From NCBI GenBank assembly GCA_017992475.1, contig JAGOOO010000003.1, forward strand, positions 62,001-126,000: DNA of 64,000 nucleotides, given 5' to 3'. Below are positions 4,143 through 17,177 of the stretch, one piece after another (the first letter of the stretch is position 1; each line of letters opens with the position of its first letter). The position numbers and the translations under genes were made by a program. Below the pieces are notes generated by a model. The model saw only the letters and a list, made by a program, of their open reading frames with translations. It made no database searches and was not told the DNA's origin. The stretch comes from Caldisericia bacterium. Lineage in GTDB: Bacteria; Caldisericota; Caldisericia; JAAYUI01.

Positions 4143-5417
4143 ATGCCAGTTCGAATTATTTGTGGTTTGCAATGGGGGGATGAGGGCAAGGGCAAACTCA
4201 CGCACCTGCTCTCGGACGAGGCGGATGTTGTTGCAAGGTATGCTGGTGGGCCAAACTCCGGGCACACAATCATATCTGGGGGAAAGAAATTTGTTTTCCA
4301 TGTTGTACCTGCCGGGATATTCAAGCCAAACTCAATCAGTCTCATAGGACCAGGCACCGTTATTGATCCTATGGGTTTAATCAATGAGCTGGAAGGCGTT
4401 GCTTCACAGATCGACTACAATGGCCGCATTTTCATTTCAGAATCGGCCCACATGATACTTGAGTACCATCGCTACAAAGACAAACTGGACGAGATTGCCA
4501 AAGGCAAGGCAATGCTTGGCACGACCCTCCGTGGAATTGGTCCAACCTATGCCGACAAGGCCAACAGGACAGGCATCAAGCTTGGGCTCTTAAAGGACGA
4601 GGCCAAGCTCAGGGAGGCCATCTCAAGAAACCTCGACAACAAAAACAAATCATTTGTTGCCTTTGGTGCCGAACCATTGTCGTTTGAGCAGGTCTTTGGG
4701 CCTGTCATGGCCGCAAGGGACAAGATATTGCCGCTTTTGGGCGATGTCTGTTCGATGGCCCAGGACTATGTAAAAAGGGGCAAATATCTCCTTCTGGAGG
4801 GCAACCAGGGCGTTTTGCTGGACATCGACCACGGAACATATCCCTTTGTCACCTCATCATCGTGCGTCCCTGCATCCGGTCTTGCCACCTTCGGGCTTTC
4901 GCCGCAAAGCCTGACAGACATCATAGGTGTTGCGAAATCATACCAAACAAGGGTTGGAAAGGGTCCGATGCCAACCATTCAAAATAATGAAACGGGCCAA
5001 ATAATAAGGGAGAGGGGCAAGGAGTATGGCTCTTCAACTGGAAGGCCAAGAGATTGCGGTTTCCTCGACCTCGTTGCGCTCAAGTATGCGATCCAGGTCT
5101 CAGGGGCAACCAAGATGGGCCTCACCCTGCTGGACGTTCTTGATGTGTTTGACAAGATAAATGTTTGTGTTGCTTATGAAACCCCATCTGGCACAACAGA
5201 CAAGTTTATAAACGATGCGGATTTCCTCTCGGCAGTAAAGCCTGTTTACAAAGAGCTTGATGGCTGGAAAGAAGACATCTCGCAGTGCAAGAACTACAAT
5301 GTCCTTCCCGGCAAGGCCAAAGAGTACATAAAATTCCTTGAAGACTATACCGGAATACCAGTTTGCCTCGTCTCGGTCGGCCCGGATGAAAAGCAGACAA
5401 TCAGGAGGGCAATTTGA
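4143..5417 (+). CDS. purA: Adenylosuccinate synthetase
   Basis: The enzyme catalyses GTP-dependent condensation of IMP and aspartate to adenylosuccinate, the first committed step to AMP. At 424 residues it has normal family length. The N-terminus shows GLQWGDEGKGKL (GTP-binding loop and catalytic Asp) and GGPNSGHT (catalytic His). The middle has the GNQG and TSSS segments and the QTRVG segment of the IMP site. The ATG is preceded by GGAGG with good spacing. It is the first gene of a plus-strand purine cluster, and its stop overlaps the TTG start of purB, implying translational coupling. Confidence 0.97.
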   Translation: MPVRIICGLQWGDEGKGKLTHLLSDEADVVARYAGGPNSGHTIISGGKKFVFHVVPAGIFKPNSISLIGPGTVIDPMGLINELEGVASQIDYNGRIFISESAHMILEYHRYKDKLDEIAKGKAMLGTTLRGIGPTYADKANRTGIKLGLLKDEAKLREAISRNLDNKNKSFVAFGAEPLSFEQVFGPVMAARDKILPLLGDVCSMAQDYVKRGKYLLLEGNQGVLLDIDHGTYPFVTSSSCVPASGLATFGLSPQSLTDIIGVAKSYQTRVGKGPMPTIQNNETGQIIRERGKEYGSSTGRPRDCGFLDLVALKYAIQVSGATKMGLTLLDVLDVFDKINVCVAYETPSGTTDKFINDADFLSAVKPVYKELDGWKEDISQCKNYNVLPGKAKEYIKFLEDYTGIPVCLVSVGPDEKQTIRRAI

Positions 5418-8297: not shown

Positions 8298-9206
8298 TTG
8301 GAGAAAAAGTTCACCAGAGGTTCACCAAACGCTGACAAGGTGGAAGCGACAAAGACCGCACAGTCGCTGTTGAAAAAGCTGAACACCCTTTTGGAAAAAA
8401 GAAAGATTGTGGACTACTCCGTAAAACTTCAAAAAAACAAAGTTTTGCTTGTTTTGCCAACAATGCTTGAAGAAGGAAAGAGAGAAAAGCTTGTACAGGC
8501 GATCATGGAGCTTCAGGGTTCCGACAACATCAAGATTCAGGACAACAAAGGGCCTGCCAGGTTGCTCTCCGATGAGGACATTGAAGACCAGTTTAGAATT
8601 TCCCTTCAGAAATACATCCCCAAAGAAACAAAAGTCAGTGGTTCTGTGAGGGATGGTGTCATGACGGTTTATGGCACCACAACCTCGGCCTATGCCAGAG
8701 AGGCCATCCTTGATCTGGCGAAAGAAACGCCAGGTGTGAAAAAGGTAGCTGATCAGACAAGGTTGCCGATGGCTAAATCGGACATTGATCTGGCCAATTC
8801 TGTGATGCTGGAGCTTGGCAATGAGGCCGGCATCTCGGTTTACCACCTTCAGGTGATGGCCAGGGGCGGGAATGTTTTTGTGACGGGCAACGCAAAGGAC
8901 GACAAGTCTGTAAAGCTGGCAACAGATGTAATCTCCAAGGTTTCAGGGGTGAAATCTGTCGAGAATGCCATCAGGATCCCTGGCGAAACGATTACTACAG
9001 ATGACAAGCTGAGGGACAAGATATTTGATTCCCTGATAAGGTCGTCTTCCGTTAGGGCCAGGGACATAAAAGTGGCAGTTGTTCACGGGAACGTGTTTTT
9101 GAGGGGCTACGCCGCCTCAACAAAGGAAATTATTGCCGCAGAGTCAATGGTTTCTTCGATGCCTGGCGTAAAAAAAGTCTACATGGAGCTGGAGCCAAGA
9201 TTGTGA
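8298..9206 (+). CDS. Triple BON-domain protein, apparently cytoplasmic
   Basis: The 302-residue protein has a basic N-terminal part (residues 1-95) and then three BON-type units, at roughly residues 96-160, 161-228 and 232-302. Each has the alternating pattern of a helix, 'V.G.V..G.V.V.G.A' strands and a final 'A....PGVK.V' strand. BON domains usually bind membranes or ligands in exported proteins, but no signal peptide or membrane segment is visible. The start is TTG at 8298 with AAGGAGG upstream. It sits between purQ and argS and overlaps the GTG of argS, so it shares their transcript. Its function is unknown. Confidence 0.8.
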   Translation: MEKKFTRGSPNADKVEATKTAQSLLKKLNTLLEKRKIVDYSVKLQKNKVLLVLPTMLEEGKREKLVQAIMELQGSDNIKIQDNKGPARLLSDEDIEDQFRISLQKYIPKETKVSGSVRDGVMTVYGTTTSAYAREAILDLAKETPGVKKVADQTRLPMAKSDIDLANSVMLELGNEAGISVYHLQVMARGGNVFVTGNAKDDKSVKLATDVISKVSGVKSVENAIRIPGETITTDDKLRDKIFDSLIRSSSVRARDIKVAVVHGNVFLRGYAASTKEIIAAESMVSSMPGVKKVYMELEPRL

Positions 9207-10843
9207 GCATAAAAACCCATATTTCAAAGATATTTTCAGACGCCCTCGAAAAGATGGGCGTCTTTGATGTCGAGGCGGGCATTACCCGTCCCGACTCGAA
9301 AGAACACGGTGATTATTCCACCAATGTTGCCATGGGGCTTTCAAAGCAGTTGAAAAAGCCGCCAAGGGCGATTGCGGAAGAGATTGTTTCATTGACTTAT
9401 CAGTCATTGACTGGTAAGTCAATATTTGAAAAGGTCGAAGTTGTCGGCCCAGGCTTCATAAATATTTTTCTCAAAAAAGATGTTGTTTCAGGTTTTGTAA
9501 AACAGGCCCTGGAAGACAGTTCTTATGGCAAGTGGTGTGTTGGTGGTGGGAAAAAAGTGCAGGTGGAATTTGTTTCTGCAAATCCGACAGGGCCGATAAC
9601 CGTTGCCAACGGAAGGGGTGGGCCTCTTGGTGATTCGCTTGCCAGGCTCCTTGAGTGGACGGGTTATGATGTTCACAGGGAATTCTATGTAAATGACAGG
9701 GGCGCCAAGGTTGTGCATCTAGCCGGATCACTGGAAGCCAGATACAAACAGGCGCTTGGCATGCCGCTTGTTCTTCCCCCAGAAGGCTATCCGGGTGAGT
9801 ATCTGCTTGACATAGCAAAAAACATTGCAAAAGAGTTTGGAGAAGAGCCACTCGGCTGGGATGAGGCAAGGAGGCTGGAATTTTTTGGAAAGCAGGCTGT
9901 AGAGAGGATTGTGGCCACCCAGAAAGCCGTTTTCGAAAAGTTCGGAATAAAGTTTGACAGGTGGTTTTCAGAGCGTGAGATGGCTGAGCGTGGGGAGATA
10001 GACCAGACGCTTTCAATGCTTTCTGAAAAGGGTGTTCTCTACCAGCAGGATGGCGCAACCTACATGCGCTCCACCGATTTTGGCGACGACAAGGACTTTG
10101 TTGTTGTGAAGTCGAATGGTGAACCAACCTACACAACAACTGACATCGCCTACCATATTGGAAAATTCAAAAGGGGGTTCGGGCACGTCATAGATGTCAT
10201 GGGTGCCGATCACCACGGGCACACCGGGCCGATGTTTGCTGCGCTGGAGGCGCTTGGTCAGCCAAAGGACAGCCTCGAATTCCTGCTTTACCAGCTTGTC
10301 CACCTGTTCAGGGGTGGCCAGCAGGTCAAAATGAGCAAGTCCAGCGGAGAGTTTGTTACGCTTGACGAACTGCTCTCCGAGGTCGGCACCGATTCGGCCA
10401 GGTACTTCTTCCTGATGCGCTCTTCAGACACCCATCTGAACTTTGATCTCGACCTGGCAAAATCGCAGACAATGGACAACCCGGTTTACTATGTGCAGTA
10501 TGCCCATGTCCGTTGTTGCGCAATAGCCGATGATCCGAGGGCCTCGTCTGCAAACCCGCTAAAGGCAGACGCATTCGAGGGTGATCTCGAAACGGAGCTT
10601 GCAAAAGCAATCCTTGATTTCCCCGAAGAGGTTCTCGGTGCAGCAAATTCCAGGGCCCCAAACCGCATTGCGGCATACGCCGAAAAGCTCTCCTCATGTT
10701 TCCACAGCTTTTATCATGACTGCAGGGTCCTTGGAGAGGAGCAAGAGGTTGCAGATAGAAGGATGCTTCTAGTGCTCTCCACAAAAAAGGTCATAGCCAG
10801 CGCGCTGTCAATTCTTGGTGTTTCTGCGCCTGAAAGAATGTAA
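9203..10843 (+). CDS. argS: Arginyl-tRNA synthetase
   Basis: This class I aminoacyl-tRNA synthetase charges tRNA-Arg. The 546 residues contain the N-terminal Arg-tRNA synthetase domain, the catalytic Rossmann fold with NPTGPITVANGRG (residues 127-139) where the HIGH signature sits, KMSKS intact at about 376-380, and a C-terminal DALR anticodon-binding region rich in helices. The HIGH motif is degenerate: the usual HVGH after NPTGP is replaced by TVAN. The GTG start overlaps the stop of the BON gene. A strong bidirectional terminator follows 25 nt after the stop. Confidence 0.95.
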   Translation: MSIKTHISKIFSDALEKMGVFDVEAGITRPDSKEHGDYSTNVAMGLSKQLKKPPRAIAEEIVSLTYQSLTGKSIFEKVEVVGPGFINIFLKKDVVSGFVKQALEDSSYGKWCVGGGKKVQVEFVSANPTGPITVANGRGGPLGDSLARLLEWTGYDVHREFYVNDRGAKVVHLAGSLEARYKQALGMPLVLPPEGYPGEYLLDIAKNIAKEFGEEPLGWDEARRLEFFGKQAVERIVATQKAVFEKFGIKFDRWFSEREMAERGEIDQTLSMLSEKGVLYQQDGATYMRSTDFGDDKDFVVVKSNGEPTYTTTDIAYHIGKFKRGFGHVIDVMGADHHGHTGPMFAALEALGQPKDSLEFLLYQLVHLFRGGQQVKMSKSSGEFVTLDELLSEVGTDSARYFFLMRSSDTHLNFDLDLAKSQTMDNPVYYVQYAHVRCCAIADDPRASSANPLKADAFEGDLETELAKAILDFPEEVLGAANSRAPNRIAAYAEKLSSCFHSFYHDCRVLGEEQEVADRRMLLVLSTKKVIASALSILGVSAPERM

Positions 10844-10868
10844 TAAAACTTTTTAGCGTTGCCTGGTC

Positions 10869-10907
10869 AACAACCCCGCGTTTTTTATGATGGCGCGGGG
10901 TTGTTTG
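10869..10907. terminator. Bidirectional intrinsic terminator (argS / radical SAM operon)
   Basis: A perfect 12-bp stem, AACAACCCCGCG (10869-10880) with CGCGGGGTTGTT (10894-10905), lies between two convergent transcription units. The plus side is followed by a T-rich stretch and the minus side is followed by a weaker one. Confidence 0.75.
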
Positions 10908-10926
10908 TATTTTAGGCATGAGCAGC

Positions 10927-12303
10927 TCAGGCCTTTTGTGCGGCCTTCTCTTCTTCCTGCTTTTTCTGTGCTTCTTTTTTCTTCTCCGCGTAGGTTATCT
11001 TGAGTAGGTCTTTTATGTTGTATTTGTAGCTTGCGCACTTCTCAAGCTTCCTGTCGGTCTGGGTGAAATCTGTTGTCATCGGGAGCCATTTCGCGGGGCA
11101 ATTGGCAAGGCAGCATGGCATGAATACGCAACCATCGCACTCCTCCTTGTCGAATGGGTTGAAAAGCACCCATTTGAAATAGTTTTCCCCGTTGATGGCC
11201 TTCATGTCCATTATGTTGCCATATGATTCCTTCTCCTGGCCAACCTGGTTCCAGCACCTGACAAGAGACCCGTCCGGGCAAATGACTGTTGAAGTTGGCC
11301 TTGTGGCACAGCACGATGAAGACATCGAGCGGACGTACCAGGAGAAACCGAGGTTTTTGTCTATGGCCGACTGGTAGAACTTTGTCAGGACCTCGGCATA
11401 TTCCTGTACATTCAGACACATGTTCTCCACAGAGGCACATGCCTTGGTTGCCTCGGAGGTAAGGAGTCCTGGGTAAATGGAAATGTTCTTCTTGCCAGCA
11501 AGTATTTTGATGCTGTCAAAAAGTGGCGTGAAGTCTTTTGCTATCTCTTTATCCACGTTTACTCTGACAGCAATCGGAATAAATTCTGATGCCTCAAGGA
11601 CATTCTGAACGATCCTGTCGAATGTTGGCCCTCCCCCACGAAGCACCCTGCGCTGGTTGTGGATCTCTGGTGGCCCGTCGATTGTTGCCTGAATGTGGGT
11701 GACATTTCTTTCTGCAAGTGCTTTTGCCTTTTCCTTGTCCAAAAGCCAGCAATTGCTGATCATGTGCGATGAGTACTTGACTTTCCTTTCCTTGCAGAGA
11801 TTTATGAAGAAGTCCGAAAGCTCGATGACCGTGTCGTATCCCAGGAGGGGCTCGCCGCCAAACCATGTAATGGCAAAGTACTCAAGGAAAGAGCTTTTGA
11901 ATGCCTCAGTCGTCATTTCCTTTATTTTGTCGACGACCTCCCTGGACATGCTGATAGGTTTTTGTTCCTCAAAACAGTAGGTGCATTTGAAGTTGCAGGC
12001 CATTGTGGGGAGCAGGGTATAGCCCAGTGAATTTGGACTGTATGTTGACTGGAGAAATTTGAGTTTTACCCTGTCCTGTTCGTTGAGCGTGTCCTCGACA
12101 AGCATCCCGCCTTTTTTGAACTGCTCGTAGGATTCCTTTTCCTTGTCTGTAAAATTGTTTGGATCAATTTTATTTGATGCACATTTCATAAAAAATTTGT
12201 ATGTTTCCTTGTCCAGCTCTGCAAAGCCGCTCGCAAAAGCATTATAGCAAAGCTTTGCCCCATTATCGCCTTCCATCCAGATGTTGTACATTGATTCTTT
12301 CAT
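10927..12303 (-). CDS. Radical SAM/SPASM protein, likely peptide maturase
   Basis: The 458-residue enzyme has an N-terminal region of the peptide-maturase type (YNAFASGFAELD), a radical SAM core with CNFKCTYC giving the [4Fe-4S] Cys 103, 107 and 110, and GGEP (149-152) for SAM binding. A C-terminal SPASM domain with many Cys (about 331, 332, 342, 350, 389, 392, 397, 398, 402, 423) would hold auxiliary Fe-S clusters. The last 20 residues are a Lys/Glu/Ala-rich tail. Such enzymes usually modify ribosomal peptides or protein side chains. It lies directly downstream, on the same strand, of four Cys-rich small proteins, the obvious candidate substrates. The class is certain; the reaction (thioether or other crosslink) is inference. 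Confidence 0.9.
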   Translation of the reverse strand: MKESMYNIWMEGDNGAKLCYNAFASGFAELDKETYKFFMKCASNKIDPNNFTDKEKESYEQFKKGGMLVEDTLNEQDRVKLKFLQSTYSPNSLGYTLLPTMACNFKCTYCFEEQKPISMSREVVDKIKEMTTEAFKSSFLEYFAITWFGGEPLLGYDTVIELSDFFINLCKERKVKYSSHMISNCWLLDKEKAKALAERNVTHIQATIDGPPEIHNQRRVLRGGGPTFDRIVQNVLEASEFIPIAVRVNVDKEIAKDFTPLFDSIKILAGKKNISIYPGLLTSEATKACASVENMCLNVQEYAEVLTKFYQSAIDKNLGFSWYVRSMSSSCCATRPTSTVICPDGSLVRCWNQVGQEKESYGNIMDMKAINGENYFKWVLFNPFDKEECDGCVFMPCCLANCPAKWLPMTTDFTQTDRKLEKCASYKYNIKDLLKITYAEKKKEAQKKQEEEKAAQKA

Positions 12304-12329
12304 TGAGATCGCTCCTTTTGTTTTTGAAC

Positions 12330-12353
12330 AAGGGGGATCGAATGATCCCCCTT
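12330..12353. promoter_or_regulatory. Stem-loop between last Cys-rich gene and radical SAM gene
   Basis: AAGGGGGATC and GATCCCCCTT form a perfect 10-bp stem with a 4-nt loop, in the 61-nt gap before the enzyme gene. No long T-run follows in the direction of transcription, so it looks more like a partial attenuator or an mRNA stabiliser than a full terminator. Either would give more precursor than enzyme. Confidence 0.55.
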
Positions 12354-12364
12354 GGAATTATTTT

Positions 12365-12700
12365 CTAACTCAACCTTGCAGGGCAGGGAAGATCATGTTG
12401 ATAGCAGGTCTTGCCGTCAGTGCAGATCCAACCTTTTGTCGGGCAGTATGTTGAGCAGTATGTGGGGCAGTATGTTGGACATGTATTGTCTGTCTGGTAG
12501 CATTGACCCCAGTAATCCTTGCAGCTTGCACCAGTGCAGGTGTAACCACCTGCAACACAAGTCAGCACTTCACAGTGTACGGCATTGCAGCTGTAGGTTT
12601 CAGCACCCGCACAGTCCTTGTAAAAGCACTGTCCTGGCCCATCTGCTTGACAGTATGGCGCAATATCGCCAATTGATCCGGGTTTTACGATCCAGTTCAT
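12365..12700 (-). CDS. Cys-rich putative modified-peptide precursor, family A copy 1
   Basis: The 111-residue product has 16 Cys and begins MNWIVKPGS, a short Cys-free leader-like segment with no Sec signal. Cys 74, 78, 82 and 86 form a strict period-four block (CPTYCPTYCSTYC), followed by GWICTDGKTC. An AGGAGG site lies 8 nt before the ATG. It is about 70% identical by eye to the family A protein at 13159-13479 and shares the M-x-W-I-V-x-P start with family B. It is the last of four such genes before the radical SAM enzyme. It could instead be a disulfide-rich structural protein, but the lack of an export signal and the neighbouring enzyme favour a precursor. Confidence 0.8.
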   Translation of the reverse strand: MNWIVKPGSIGDIAPYCQADGPGQCFYKDCAGAETYSCNAVHCEVLTCVAGGYTCTGASCKDYWGQCYQTDNTCPTYCPTYCSTYCPTKGWICTDGKTCYQHDLPCPARLS

Positions 12701-12720
12701 TTGTTTGCCTCCTTTTTATC

Positions 12721-13035
12721 TCACGGATAGAATGACGGACAATCCTGCAGTGTTGGGCAAGTGGTTTCCCAGCCTGCAGGGCACACTTGATTGGTGTAGC
12801 AACCAGTGTAGCCCTCAGGTGGAAGACATTCATGGTCTGGACAATATGCAGTACAAGTTTTTGAACAAGCCCAGTCACATGGTCCCCCGACATCATCAAA
12901 ACCGCTTACACATGTATTTCCACTGCAATATGCTGCTGGTGGGTTGCATTGGTTTTGAACACACTTGTGGTGATTGCACTGTTGCTGCGTACAATTGATT
13001 ACAAACTCATCCATTGGATTCACAATCCATTTCAT
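12721..13035 (-). CDS. Cys-rich putative modified-peptide precursor, family B copy 1
   Basis: This 104-residue protein has 15 Cys and starts MKWIVNPMDEF. I chose the ATG at 13033-13035 because AGGGG precedes it at good distance; the in-frame upstream extension has no conserved counterpart. It carries CTQQQCNHHKC, FDDVGGPC and AYCPDHEC, nearly unchanged in the second family B copy. Copies diverge most between residues 85 and 104. No signal peptide is visible. It lies 20 nt upstream of the family A copy 1 gene, so the two are probably translated from one message. Confidence 0.8.
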   Translation of the reverse strand: MKWIVNPMDEFVINCTQQQCNHHKCVQNQCNPPAAYCSGNTCVSGFDDVGGPCDWACSKTCTAYCPDHECLPPEGYTGCYTNQVCPAGWETTCPTLQDCPSFYP

Positions 13036-13158
13036 TTCGTTTGTTCCCCTTTCTTGGATATTTCTAGATATTCTGATCAAATTTACTAAAGTTACTTCTC
13101 ATTTGTTTGAACGGGGGTGGTGATTTGCCCACCGCATTTTTAGTTACTTTTTCCTAGA

Positions 13159-13479
13159 TCAGGGAAGGCTATAGATTGTGCAGGTTTTACCATCAGTACA
13201 AATCCATCCTTCTGTTGGGCAGTATGCCGGGCAGTATGCCGGGCAGTATGTTGGGCATCCAAGATCGGTTTGGAAGCATTGCCCCCAATAATCTTTGCAA
13301 GTGGCAACACTACACGTATATCCACCTGCAACACAGCTGAGAACTTCGCAATGAACGCCCTTACAGTTGTAGCTCTCGGCTCCTGCACAGTCTTTGTAAT
13401 TGCATTGTGATGCTTCGTCTGATATGCAATATGGTATTACATTGTCGATTGGTGATCCGGGTTTTATTATCCAATTCAT
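13159..13479 (-). CDS. Cys-rich putative modified-peptide precursor, family A copy 2
   Basis: A 106-residue product with 15 Cys, starting MNWIIKPGS. The period-four block recurs at Cys 75, 79, 83 and 87 (CPTYCPAYCPAYC) and is again followed by GWICTDGKTC. Also conserved with copy 1 are YKDCAGAE, VHCEVL, CVAGGYTC and CKDYWGQC. GGAGG precedes the ATG. It is 15 nt downstream of family B copy 2. The 123-nt gap after it (13036-13158) is the largest between the small genes and holds only a weak GGTGG/CCACC hairpin. Confidence 0.8.
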   Translation of the reverse strand: MNWIIKPGSPIDNVIPYCISDEASQCNYKDCAGAESYNCKGVHCEVLSCVAGGYTCSVATCKDYWGQCFQTDLGCPTYCPAYCPAYCPTEGWICTDGKTCTIYSLP

Positions 13480-13494
13480 TTATTTACCTCCTTT

Positions 13495-13830
13495 TCATAT
13501 TGTTTTATTAGGGCATGGGAAGTATGTTGGGCAAGTATCTAGTGTTGGACAATTAGATTCCCAACCCGCAGGACAAATTGCATTGGCAGAACAAGTGTTG
13601 TATGATGATGGATCTGGGAAACACTCATGGTCTGGACAGTATGCATTGCATACTTTTGAGCAAATCCATTCGCATGGTCCCCCAACATCATCAAATTCAT
13701 TTGTGCATGTATTTAGAGTACAATATGCTCCTGGTGGGTTGCATTGGTTTTGAACACACTTGTGGTGGTTGCACTGTTGCTGCGTACAAGTGATTACAAA
13801 CTCATCCATCGGATTCACAATCCATTTCAT
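13495..13830 (-). CDS. Cys-rich putative modified-peptide precursor, family B copy 2
   Basis: A 111-residue product with 16 Cys, starting MKWIVNPMDEF. It shares CTQQQCNHHKCVQNQCNPP, FDDVGGPC and AYCPDHEC with copy 1 but has a different, slightly longer C-terminus ending FPCPNKTI. Its ATG overlaps the stop codon of the upstream TolB-like gene (ATGA), and the ribosome site AAGGAG lies inside that gene, so the two are translationally coupled. This coupling ties the exported propeller protein to the Cys-rich cluster. Confidence 0.8.
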   Translation of the reverse strand: MKWIVNPMDEFVITCTQQQCNHHKCVQNQCNPPGAYCTLNTCTNEFDDVGGPCEWICSKVCNAYCPDHECFPDPSSYNTCSANAICPAGWESNCPTLDTCPTYFPCPNKTI

Positions 13831-15161
13831 TTCGTATATTCTCCTTTCTTGATTTGTATGGCATAGATATCCCAGTCAAACTCGTCGAGTTCGGCCCAGG
13901 TCACAAGATTTTTGTATATTCTTGTCCAGTGTCTGACTTCTGCCTTAATTCTTCTGGTTCCAGGGACAAGGATTTCTGGTGTTTTGTCTTCACCATAATT
14001 AAACAGCATGAGATCGAAATCTTCCGGATTTTCAGGTGTGTTTTGCGTCCACACCACATTGTTTCCGTAAGAACAACCTCCGGCTATGTTCAACCTGCCA
14101 AAGACTTTTCCAGAGATCTCAAAGACACTATTTTTTGCCTGGTCAAAACCCAAAAGCTGGGTGTATCTTTTTTTGGAAAAACCAGAAACGAGCATGACAG
14201 GAAAGTTTGAGTCAGGACAATTCATCAGATCGATAGACATGACCTCATCAGGTACTGGATTCATAACATAAAATTTTTCGCCTGTGGCGAGGTTGTAGCT
14301 TTTTATTCTGTTTATTGCCCTGTCACCCTGGTAGGATTGTTCCTGATAGTAGACAAAATCCCCCTGTATGACTGCAAGGTATTGATGGTCAGGGCCATCA
14401 TCGATTGGCACCACCTTGTCCTTTTCAATATCATACATCATGAGGTCAAGATTGCTTGAGTTTCTCACCTCATAGACGACCACTTTTCCATTTGTGACCG
14501 GATACGCTCTCTGCAGGCTATTTTTGAATTTATGAATTCTTTTTGGTTTTTCCCCGAGGCGTGTCAGGTCACAAAAGTAAATACCAAGGTCTTTGGACAT
14601 ATAGTCAGGCCATGTGGCGATGCCTCCCGAAACGTTGACATAGGCACGGTATCCGGCAGGCAAGTCGACGGTTTTTTGTTCTCCGGCCCTGATGTCTGCA
14701 AACCAGATGGAATTTTTCTTCTTTGTTTGCATGAGCTGCTGATCAAGCCATACGACATAGTTTTCTGAAGCATAGATGAAATTGTCGGTTGAAAAGGAAG
14801 GAAGCTGGTCCCCTCCTCCTCCCAGTTGACGTTTTTCCCCTGTTTCCAGATCCATGCAGAAAACCTTGCTTTGGCCATTCTCAGAACCTATCCAGACAAC
14901 CTTGCCATCAAGCGGGAAGGGCGTATAGGAAGTTTCGTCTACCGAAACGGCTACTTGTATTTCCCCATCATGCTCCCCGCAAACACCAAAGCGCGCTGTG
15001 CCACCAAAATAAATTGGAAGGCAAAGCGCGACTACCATTAAAACAGCGATTTTTTTATATGCGTTAATGGCAATCCTCCTTTCTTTTTGCCAGACTTTGC
15101 TGGCCCCCAATGGCTCCTCAAGATCGACATTGGGGATTATCAAAAGAAAGGCAAACAGCAA
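13827..15161 (-). CDS. Exported TolB-like beta-propeller protein, first gene of Cys-rich operon
   Basis: The protein has blades with the TolB/periplasmic propeller pattern (VVWIGSENGQSKVFCMDLETGE; LVTWAELDEFDWDIYAIQI) after an N-terminal signal-like hydrophobic stretch. The start is uncertain. The frame opens at TTG 15161 with no ribosome site. An AAAGGAGG lies 6 nt before an in-frame ATT at 15066-15068, which would give a clean signal peptide starting M-NAYKKIAVLMVV. The next internal ATG would leave no basic residues. The stop overlaps the start of the first Cys-rich gene (ATGA). A related propeller is at 49600-50706. Binding partner and role are unknown; it may contact the exported product. 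Confidence 0.75.
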   Translation of the reverse strand: MLFAFLLIIPNVDLEEPLGASKVWQKERRIAINAYKKIAVLMVVALCLPIYFGGTARFGVCGEHDGEIQVAVSVDETSYTPFPLDGKVVWIGSENGQSKVFCMDLETGEKRQLGGGGDQLPSFSTDNFIYASENYVVWLDQQLMQTKKKNSIWFADIRAGEQKTVDLPAGYRAYVNVSGGIATWPDYMSKDLGIYFCDLTRLGEKPKRIHKFKNSLQRAYPVTNGKVVVYEVRNSSNLDLMMYDIEKDKVVPIDDGPDHQYLAVIQGDFVYYQEQSYQGDRAINRIKSYNLATGEKFYVMNPVPDEVMSIDLMNCPDSNFPVMLVSGFSKKRYTQLLGFDQAKNSVFEISGKVFGRLNIAGGCSYGNNVVWTQNTPENPEDFDLMLFNYGEDKTPEILVPGTRRIKAEVRHWTRIYKNLVTWAELDEFDWDIYAIQIKKGEYTK

Positions 15162-15833: not shown

Positions 15834-16886
15834 TTATGTTTTCAGACAATCTTTTGAATATTTCAATATCAGCAACGACCTGAAAAGGAAGTCATTTCTG
15901 AGCATTGATTTGGTTTTTCCTGTTTCCAGCGATGAGCCAACATATGCTGACCAGGTAGTGAAGGAATGGCCACTCATGACTGATGAAATCCAGTCATCGG
16001 TTTGGTCAAAACTTAAAATGAGTTTTTGGGTTTGCTTTTCAAGATACTTGATCCTTCTTGCTAGCCCACACTTTGCAAGGTGTTCCATTCTCTGGAACCA
16101 GCAGAATGCAGAATCTTTGTCCAAACTGTCAAAATTTCTGACGAGTCCATCAGTAATCGACCAAGCTGGTGAATAGGCAGTGTTTTTATGAAGCTCATAT
16201 ATTTTTGATTGTGGAGAGTCCAGCAACAAGAGGTTTTCTGATGACTGGACCAGCATTGAAAGGTTCTCTTCATTCCTCCAAGAAGATGTGTTTGCAAGGA
16301 TGAAAAGGTCATAGTAACAGGGGCAACAAAAGCCTTTCCTGAAAACAAATTTACCCCTCCATTGTTCTGTAACCTCATTCCAGTTGGAAATGTTCTTTGC
16401 CATTCTAAATGATTCGAGCGAAGTTTTGATCTGCTTCTTGACGACTTTTTCGTTCTCTTTTCCACATTGCACTAGCACCCTGGCAATTATCATTTCGCTT
16501 GCACTTGTTTTTCCACCATCGCTTTCATCAGCCAAATTGCTCATCTCAAGAGGGTTTTTAAGGGCCATCTCTTTTGCATATCTGGCCGCTTTTTCTATTG
16601 CCGGATGGCTGTATTCGATGCCCTTCTCAATGAGAAATTTTGTTGCGACCTCTAGTGCGTTGAAGCGATTGTTTGAGGGTGCGGTATGCAACCTATCTCC
16701 AAAACCGCCACTTTCTCCCTGGAGTGACAAAACCTTTGTAATAAGTTTTTCTGAAAGAATTTCTTCCTGGAGTCTTTTCATTTCGGCATCATGCCCTTTG
16801 CCCAAAATATCTCTTCTTGTTCTATATTTTATTGAAGGGCCGGCATTTTTGAGCAGAAATTCAATTTTCTCATCAATACCTTTCAT
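15834..16886 (-). CDS. Helical-repeat protein of unknown function (terpene-cyclase-like fold possible)
   Basis: The 350-residue soluble protein begins MKGIDEKIEFLLKNAGPSIKYRTRRDIL, with no signal peptide. I chose this ATG (16884-16886) because GGAGG lies 6 nt upstream; the frame extends 11 codons further without a site. It is mostly helical with motifs such as LQGESGGFGDRLH and CCPCYYDLF. The spacing of helices and the 'SIKYR..RD' opening remind me of proteins with prenyltransferase/squalene-oxidase-like alpha/alpha repeats, but catalytic Asp motifs are not evident. Several Cys occur in one short loop (FCCPCYY). Function unknown. Confidence 0.65.
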   Translation of the reverse strand: MKGIDEKIEFLLKNAGPSIKYRTRRDILGKGHDAEMKRLQEEILSEKLITKVLSLQGESGGFGDRLHTAPSNNRFNALEVATKFLIEKGIEYSHPAIEKAARYAKEMALKNPLEMSNLADESDGGKTSASEMIIARVLVQCGKENEKVVKKQIKTSLESFRMAKNISNWNEVTEQWRGKFVFRKGFCCPCYYDLFILANTSSWRNEENLSMLVQSSENLLLLDSPQSKIYELHKNTAYSPAWSITDGLVRNFDSLDKDSAFCWFQRMEHLAKCGLARRIKYLEKQTQKLILSFDQTDDWISSVMSGHSFTTWSAYVGSSLETGKTKSMLRNDFLFRSLLILKYSKDCLKT

Positions 16887-17177
16887 TTTTGCCTCCTGAA
16901 ACAACAATTTACTTGCCATTTATATACTAATTTTTAAGTAAATGCATTATTTATACATTTGTTTACATTTGAAATATAGCATCAGAAACAGTTATCATCC
17001 TCTTTTTAAAGTGGTAATAATAGCCAGAACTAATAAACTGCTGTGTTCCATTTCAAATGATTAAACCAAACTTTCTGAAATTGAAACAAACCACTATAAT
17101 TGCAGAATTTTTTATACTAAATAACTTTTTACTATGCCCTATCGTATTATGAGGCATGAAAGGAAGGAGGCACTAAG
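16887..17177. other. AT-rich divergent intergenic region
   Basis: This 291-nt gap separates two divergent genes and is strongly AT-rich. TATAAT (17095-17100) and TATTAT (17145-17150) are possible -10 boxes for the plus-strand secreted protein gene, but neither has a convincing -35 at proper distance. GGAGG near 17165 is the ribosome site of that gene. I see no RNA gene. Confidence 0.4.

Follow-up and report, generated by a model that had tools for sequence, protein, structure and literature searches.

The closest described relatives of the system reported here are Clo7bot, defined by a maturase family (TIGR04334) and a peptide family (TIGR04333), and the maturase family TIGR04463. A literature search under the names Clo7bot and TIGR04463 in an open-access collection found no paper, and searches on OhkG, Cys-every-fifth, TIGR04334, geopeptide and TIGR04333 returned nothing beyond eye and nerve tissue papers without relation to the system. 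A wider search, judged by titles and the beginnings of abstracts, yielded no paper recognisable as describing the present system. Among other described systems, thuricin CD is presented as a two-component sactibiotic with two enzymes acting together (PMC12093266), and section 4 of a published survey describes a cluster with several precursors (PMC9062424). The RRE is treated as an established leader-binding domain in PMC12710340.

The window analysed here is a stretch of 64,000 nucleotides from a Caldisericia bacterium. On its minus strand, a propeller gene is followed by B1, A1, B2, A2 and the gene of a radical SAM/SPASM enzyme. We consider it probable that these genes form a RiPP operon of the type propeller – B – A – hairpin – maturase, in which one enzyme acts on two precursor families that carry the common leader M-[NK]-W-I-[IV]-[KN]-P.

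Locus layout and the two precursor families

The features of the locus, in ascending coordinates of the window, are:

10927..12303, minus strand: radical SAM/SPASM peptide maturase, 458 aa, with an N-terminal RRE-like domain
12329..12354, minus strand: hairpin of 11 bp in the spacer that separates A2 from the enzyme gene
12365..12700, minus strand: A2, family A precursor, 111 aa, 16 Cys
12721..13035, minus strand: B2, family B precursor, 104 aa, 15 Cys, ATG at 13035
13036..13081, minus strand: residual 3′-end of the beta-propeller gene, preceding B2 (duplication footprint)
13092..13156, minus strand: second version of the spacer between A and the enzyme gene, its hairpin weakened (duplication footprint)
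13159..13479, minus strand: A1, family A precursor, 106 aa, 15 Cys
13495..13830, minus strand: B1, family B precursor, 111 aa, 16 Cys, with homologues in 4 of 54 phylum genomes
13827..15161, minus strand: beta-propeller-like protein with a hydrophobic N-terminus, likely start at 15038, directly preceding B in all four genus genomes

For B2, a longer ORF of 119 aa is also listed, starting from TTG. The coordinates on the minus strand agree with the gene order and spacings given in the original prediction, the intergenic gaps being 15 nt (B1-A1), 20 nt (B2-A2) and 123 nt (A1-B2). Each B-A gap consists of a ribosome-binding site (AAAAGGAGG) and little more. The propeller gene ends within the first codons of B1, stop and start overlapping as ATGA; the two genes overlap in this way in all four genus genomes, and the bases around the overlap recur at the B start in all five aligned copies. 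The A and B ORFs are not chance occurrences, as syntenic homologues are found in all four genomes of the genus.

Each of the four genus genomes has a hairpin of 10–11 bp in the spacer between A and the enzyme gene (z values −4.6, −3.0, −3.3 and −4.9). Three stem sequences occur among them, and the MAFFT alignment shifts the stems by one column. As no run of U follows the hairpin, we do not class it as a terminator. It may set the ratio of precursor to enzyme messenger.

The propeller protein matches the TIGR04275 repeat with an E-value of 1.2e-10, below the cut-off of that family, and its close homologues are confined to the genus (4 of 54 phylum genomes). A paralogue of approximately 30% identity occurs elsewhere in each genus genome, and no recognised precursor or maturase lies beside it at the three of four places that were read. 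Further along the window, at 15834–16919, an ORF of 361 aa has no significant Pfam or NCBIfam match, and a homologue was detected in just one of three sister stretches.

None of the checked neighbours of the window enzyme was recognisable as an exporter, protease or immunity gene. By contrast, an ABC exporter adjoins the enzyme in two other members of the phylum, G016 and G049 (loci L018 and L017). In L018 of G016, positions 8336–13496 hold one cluster with two maturases, an ABC ATPase and an ABC-2 permease, together with several short Cys peptides that carry a leader like that of A and B.

Conservation within each family was assessed over five copies, two from the window and three from sister genomes. 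Cys columns are invariant at 15 of 16 positions in A and likewise in B, compared with 51 of 90 other ungapped columns in A and 49 of 89 in B (P ~0.004 each). Silent codon changes were found at 9 of the 15 invariant Cys columns in A and at 12 of 15 in B, and columns that stay fixed despite such changes point plainly to purifying selection on Cys. The C-terminal ends vary, with extra tails carrying one added Cys on A2 and B1. Both the near-invariant Cys pattern and the variable ends had been proposed from the window alone, and both recur in this wider alignment.

Whole-length protein identity is 71% between A1 and A2 and 74% between B1 and B2. For the cores alone the values are 70% and 72%, compared with 28–32% between A and B. 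An hhalign comparison of A with B aligned 26 N-terminal columns (probability 65%). Beyond residue 12, A-B scores mostly lie inside those of shuffles with Cys kept in place, with the exceptions of A1-B2 (reached in 33 of 500 shuffles) and of A2-B1 when Cys is scored as zero (1 of 500). These scores do not establish a common origin of the A and B cores, although a remote relation is conceivable. None of the four precursors has a Pfam, NCBIfam or PHROGs match worth keeping or a credible relative among solved structures.

Duplication, distribution and divergence of the B-A unit

A single tandem duplication of a B-A unit most likely explains the order and spacing of the four genes. Both outer flanks of the unit recur within the 123-nt gap, the A-to-enzyme spacer as a decayed copy, which argues that B and A were duplicated as a pair, as the original prediction had proposed. 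The similar protein divergence of A1/A2 and B1/B2 agrees with this, and the data do not point to an independent duplication of the two families, the outcome named as contrary at the outset. The copied unit would have comprised the last part of the propeller gene, B, A and the spacer that follows A, and the event would fall in the lineage of the window, the sister species keeping one unit.

The 60 nt before B2 align globally with the 60 nt before B1 at a score of 18, against 7.0 ± 2.0 in shuffles (best of 2000, 17); when the last part, the ribosome-binding site, is removed, 97 of 2000 shuffles score as well. The spacer copy scores 22 against the spacer of sister genome G039, compared with 11.4 ± 2.05 in shuffles (1 of 1000), matches the window's own spacer more weakly (60 of 2000 shuffles), and bears no resemblance to the spacers of G041 and G040.

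Silent change is greater between A1 and A2 (0.71) than between B1 and B2 (0.48), possibly through gene conversion or sampling noise. A1 differs from all other A genes by a pS of 0.71–0.83, while those genes differ among themselves by 0.38–0.60. It looks as if the A1 split predates the four species and was followed by losses in other lineages, or as if A1-B1 came from a more distant relative.

Profiles of A and B match 4 of 54 phylum genomes, which are all four genus members examined. The A:B numbers are 2:2 in the window genome and 1:1 in each of three sisters, whose loci are all ordered propeller – B – A – enzyme. Genomes with only A or only B were absent among the 54, and one genome of another genus in the same family lacks both. 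The enzyme itself was found in 6 of 54 phylum genomes (E 1e-40). Matches to A in G006 and G010 (E 0.007) were dismissed as chance, having stops inside them. Viral contigs gave no match to either profile, and plasmids gave none to B1, the one precursor run against them.

From the pairing and short spacing, it had originally been suggested that the A and B products act together. Modified A and B might be needed jointly, as in thuricin CD, or might form one structure, with the pair being duplicated and kept for that reason; we regard this as possible but doubtful. Such joint action fits the equal numbers in four of four genomes, with neither family alone among 54, and the duplication of B-A as a unit, and both leaders would suit one enzyme. 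The four genomes are, however, close relatives rather than independent cases, which makes the equal numbers weak evidence, and both pairing and a spacing of ribosome-binding-site length are expected of any co-translated two-gene unit. Moreover, both families are acidic (pI 4.4–5.0) and thus lack charge complementarity, and thuricin CD needs two enzymes.

Between sister species, DNA identity in 200-column windows is mostly 78–100% in the propeller and enzyme genes, and mostly 61–89% from B through the spacer. Each of the six genome pairs gave a higher pS for A2 and B2 together (0.42–0.63) than for five flanking genes (0.23–0.38; P 9e-5 to 7e-10). The pN was 0.10–0.14 vs 0.014–0.028, a difference of about 3.5 to 7 fold. 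Positive selection is not supported, as dN/dS is below 1 wherever computable. Because silent sites are also raised and dN/dS is below 1, recombination with diverged copies or retention of old paralogues would explain the island better than selection on point mutations alone. Directed adenine mutagenesis of the diversity-generating retroelement type was considered and rejected, since the mismatches are mainly transitions, as they are in the enzyme gene. That the divergence is so sharply confined, with conserved genes on either side, suggests that the products are under pressure, as antagonistic or recognition peptides are.

The maturase and a leader common to its relatives

The enzyme has a Pfam Radical_SAM match (E 1.1e-15). 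Its CX3CX2C cysteines (C103, C107, C110) and SPASM cysteines (C331, C350, C389, C392, C398, C402, C423) are invariant over 52 sequences. In a model with a pLDDT of 92.6, strands at residues 7–11, 17–21 and 26–30 are followed by helices at 32–42 and 53–64, the N-terminal helices being of the helix-turn-helix type, and this modelled arrangement is that of an RRE-type domain. The best solved-structure match to the model is 5WHY/5WGG, over nearly the whole length (E 1.4e-21), and the best sequence match among solved chains is CteB (E 1.4e-15). We take 5WHY and 5WGG to be structures of CteB, the SCIFF thioether maturase. Other enzyme-like matches in the window genome reach at most 104 bits and lie on other contigs.

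A and B share the start M[NK]WI[IV][KN]P. From a scan of genome contigs with the alignment of the enzyme, 80 loci spread over many phyla were retained; five more from the genus or phylum brought the total to 85. A short ORF was called a precursor when it contained three or more Cys, had a ribosome-binding site and matched M-x(1-3)-[FWYLIVM]-[ILVMF]-x-x-P. Within 1.5 kb of the enzyme, 43 such leader ORFs lie in sense and 1 in antisense; their rate is 0.18 per kb near the enzyme, compared with 0.0115 per kb per strand at greater distance. Part of this enrichment is a matter of fitting, since the pattern was made stricter once these loci had been inspected with a looser one, but the antisense and distance controls argue against an artefact. 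A precursor was called in only 22 of the 85 loci, with at least two in nine, and six of the 43 leader ORFs come from sister loci. Without the genus and two doubtful calls, 35 ORFs remain, mostly of the form M-[KEQ]-[FYW]-[ILV]-[VI]-[KEN]-P. The position of the W in the motif is aromatic in 34 of these 35, a property that the pattern did not force. One short leader thus links a scattered group of maturases and finds precursors across phyla.

Given this common leader, A and B are both most likely substrates of a single enzyme. An alternative is that they stay unmodified, being Cys-rich disulphide or metal-binding proteins whose genes simply lie next to that of the enzyme. Their size and composition (104–111 aa, 15–16 Cys) are indeed unusual beside the shorter precursors of most relatives, and neither the AlphaFold model of B, which carries no confidence (pLDDT 34), nor the family searches are informative. 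Yet the leader is common to the precursors of far relatives and to two otherwise unlike families, and synteny with the enzyme is tight, which makes an unmodified product very improbable.

Locus L022 has a leader (MKYIVNPKDMFVIGYC) close to that of B (MKWIVNPMDEFVINC). It is a true Clo7bot locus, its enzyme scoring 775 bits (cut-off 600) and three of its precursors 48–52 (cut-off 31). At positions 4164–5858 of L022, ten Clo7bot-like precursors with at least three core types stand before one maturase; seven pass the stricter call, and the three tested pass the TIGR04333 cut-off. Across relatives, enzymes are accompanied by one precursor, by arrays of similar ones or by unlike ones side by side (L022, L024, L034), so joint action of A and B is not required by the enzyme type.

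Further arrangements were observed among these loci. Unlike precursor pairs stand side by side at L032 5619–5962 (Collinsella) and L053 9035–9350 (Lachnospiraceae). By eye, these two pairs look like the same two families and are possibly a second recurrent unlike pair. Six similar precursors with a GCCC-type core occur at L096 6392–8003 in a Zixiibacteriota genome. At L044 8145–8480, an ORF of tandem CGRCGVYVM repeats near the maturase is probably a DNA repeat.

The variety of precursors per enzyme bears on whether A and B are instead independent products of a promiscuous enzyme, drawn from an array that grows and shrinks and in which the pair is the smallest duplicable unit. We give this reading a little under an even chance. 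It is consistent with the 7–10 precursors of about three core types at L022, with the several precursors at L021, L024 and L096, and with the silent change that sets A1 apart from the other A genes of the four species, as expected of old paralogues with losses. Against it, odd arrays such as B alone or A-A are absent from the four genus genomes.

Proposed function and comparison with known systems

For the RiPP operon proposed here, the enzyme would most likely bind the leader with its RRE domain and install radical-made bonds, probably thioethers, on some of the 15–16 core Cys. The cores would turn over fast within a fixed Cys frame, probably via retention of old copies or recombination, and the A and B products, cross-linked at Cys, would act outside the cell under pressure to vary. 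The gene order, the duplication footprint, the common leader, the anatomy of the enzyme and the contrast in rates are direct observations. We infer from them the modification of both families, its chemistry, export, a target, and extracellular action under diversifying pressure. A bolder reading, which we consider unlikely, is a two-part system in which one enzyme serves unlike precursors of 15–16 Cys with strictly paired inheritance and duplication. The halves would be rapidly re-assorted between lineages within a fixed Cys frame, perhaps keeping a matched pair while escaping recognition, and the co-translated extracytoplasmic propeller would be a partner or carrier.

Thuricin CD resembles the window system in having two unlike precursors beside radical SAM chemistry. 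It differs in having two enzymes that act together, compared with one at the window locus, and in that its peptides are sactipeptides of demonstrated activity. CteB has the nearest solved fold to the window enzyme, but identity is approximately 20%, and the SCIFF maturase family TIGR03974 is matched at 78 of 425 bits. For the PapB-type ranthipeptide enzymes, the window enzyme scores 111.5 bits against an NF047865 cut-off of 340. CefB (NF038107) and TIGR04463 both give full-length profile matches with the same layout, and both have Cys-rich substrates according to their family names, but the window enzyme reaches 215.6 of 600 bits for CefA/CefB and 281 of 525 bits for TIGR04463.

With Clo7bot, the window system shares the full-length enzyme architecture, the linkage of precursors to the enzyme, several precursors per enzyme and a leader of the form M-K-[FYW]-I-V-[KN]-P. 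The A and B leaders conform to M-x-[FYW]-[IV]-x-x-P, as seen in L022, which is not a curated criterion of Clo7bot. Unlike Clo7bot peptides, the window precursors are about three times longer and contain 15–16 Cys, and none of the four matches TIGR04333 (cut-off 31 bits). The enzyme misses every curated cut-off, the best score being 292.1 bits for TIGR04334 against 600. In a tree of 52 sequences, the Clo7bot enzyme of L022 falls into a supported clade to which the window enzyme does not belong; the latter stands with the sister species on a long branch (1.1). As the cut-offs are failed, the window system is, on these profile scores, a new variant near Clo7bot and TIGR04463 rather than a member of either, and it adds to them a deep branch with unusually long, Cys-dense substrates.
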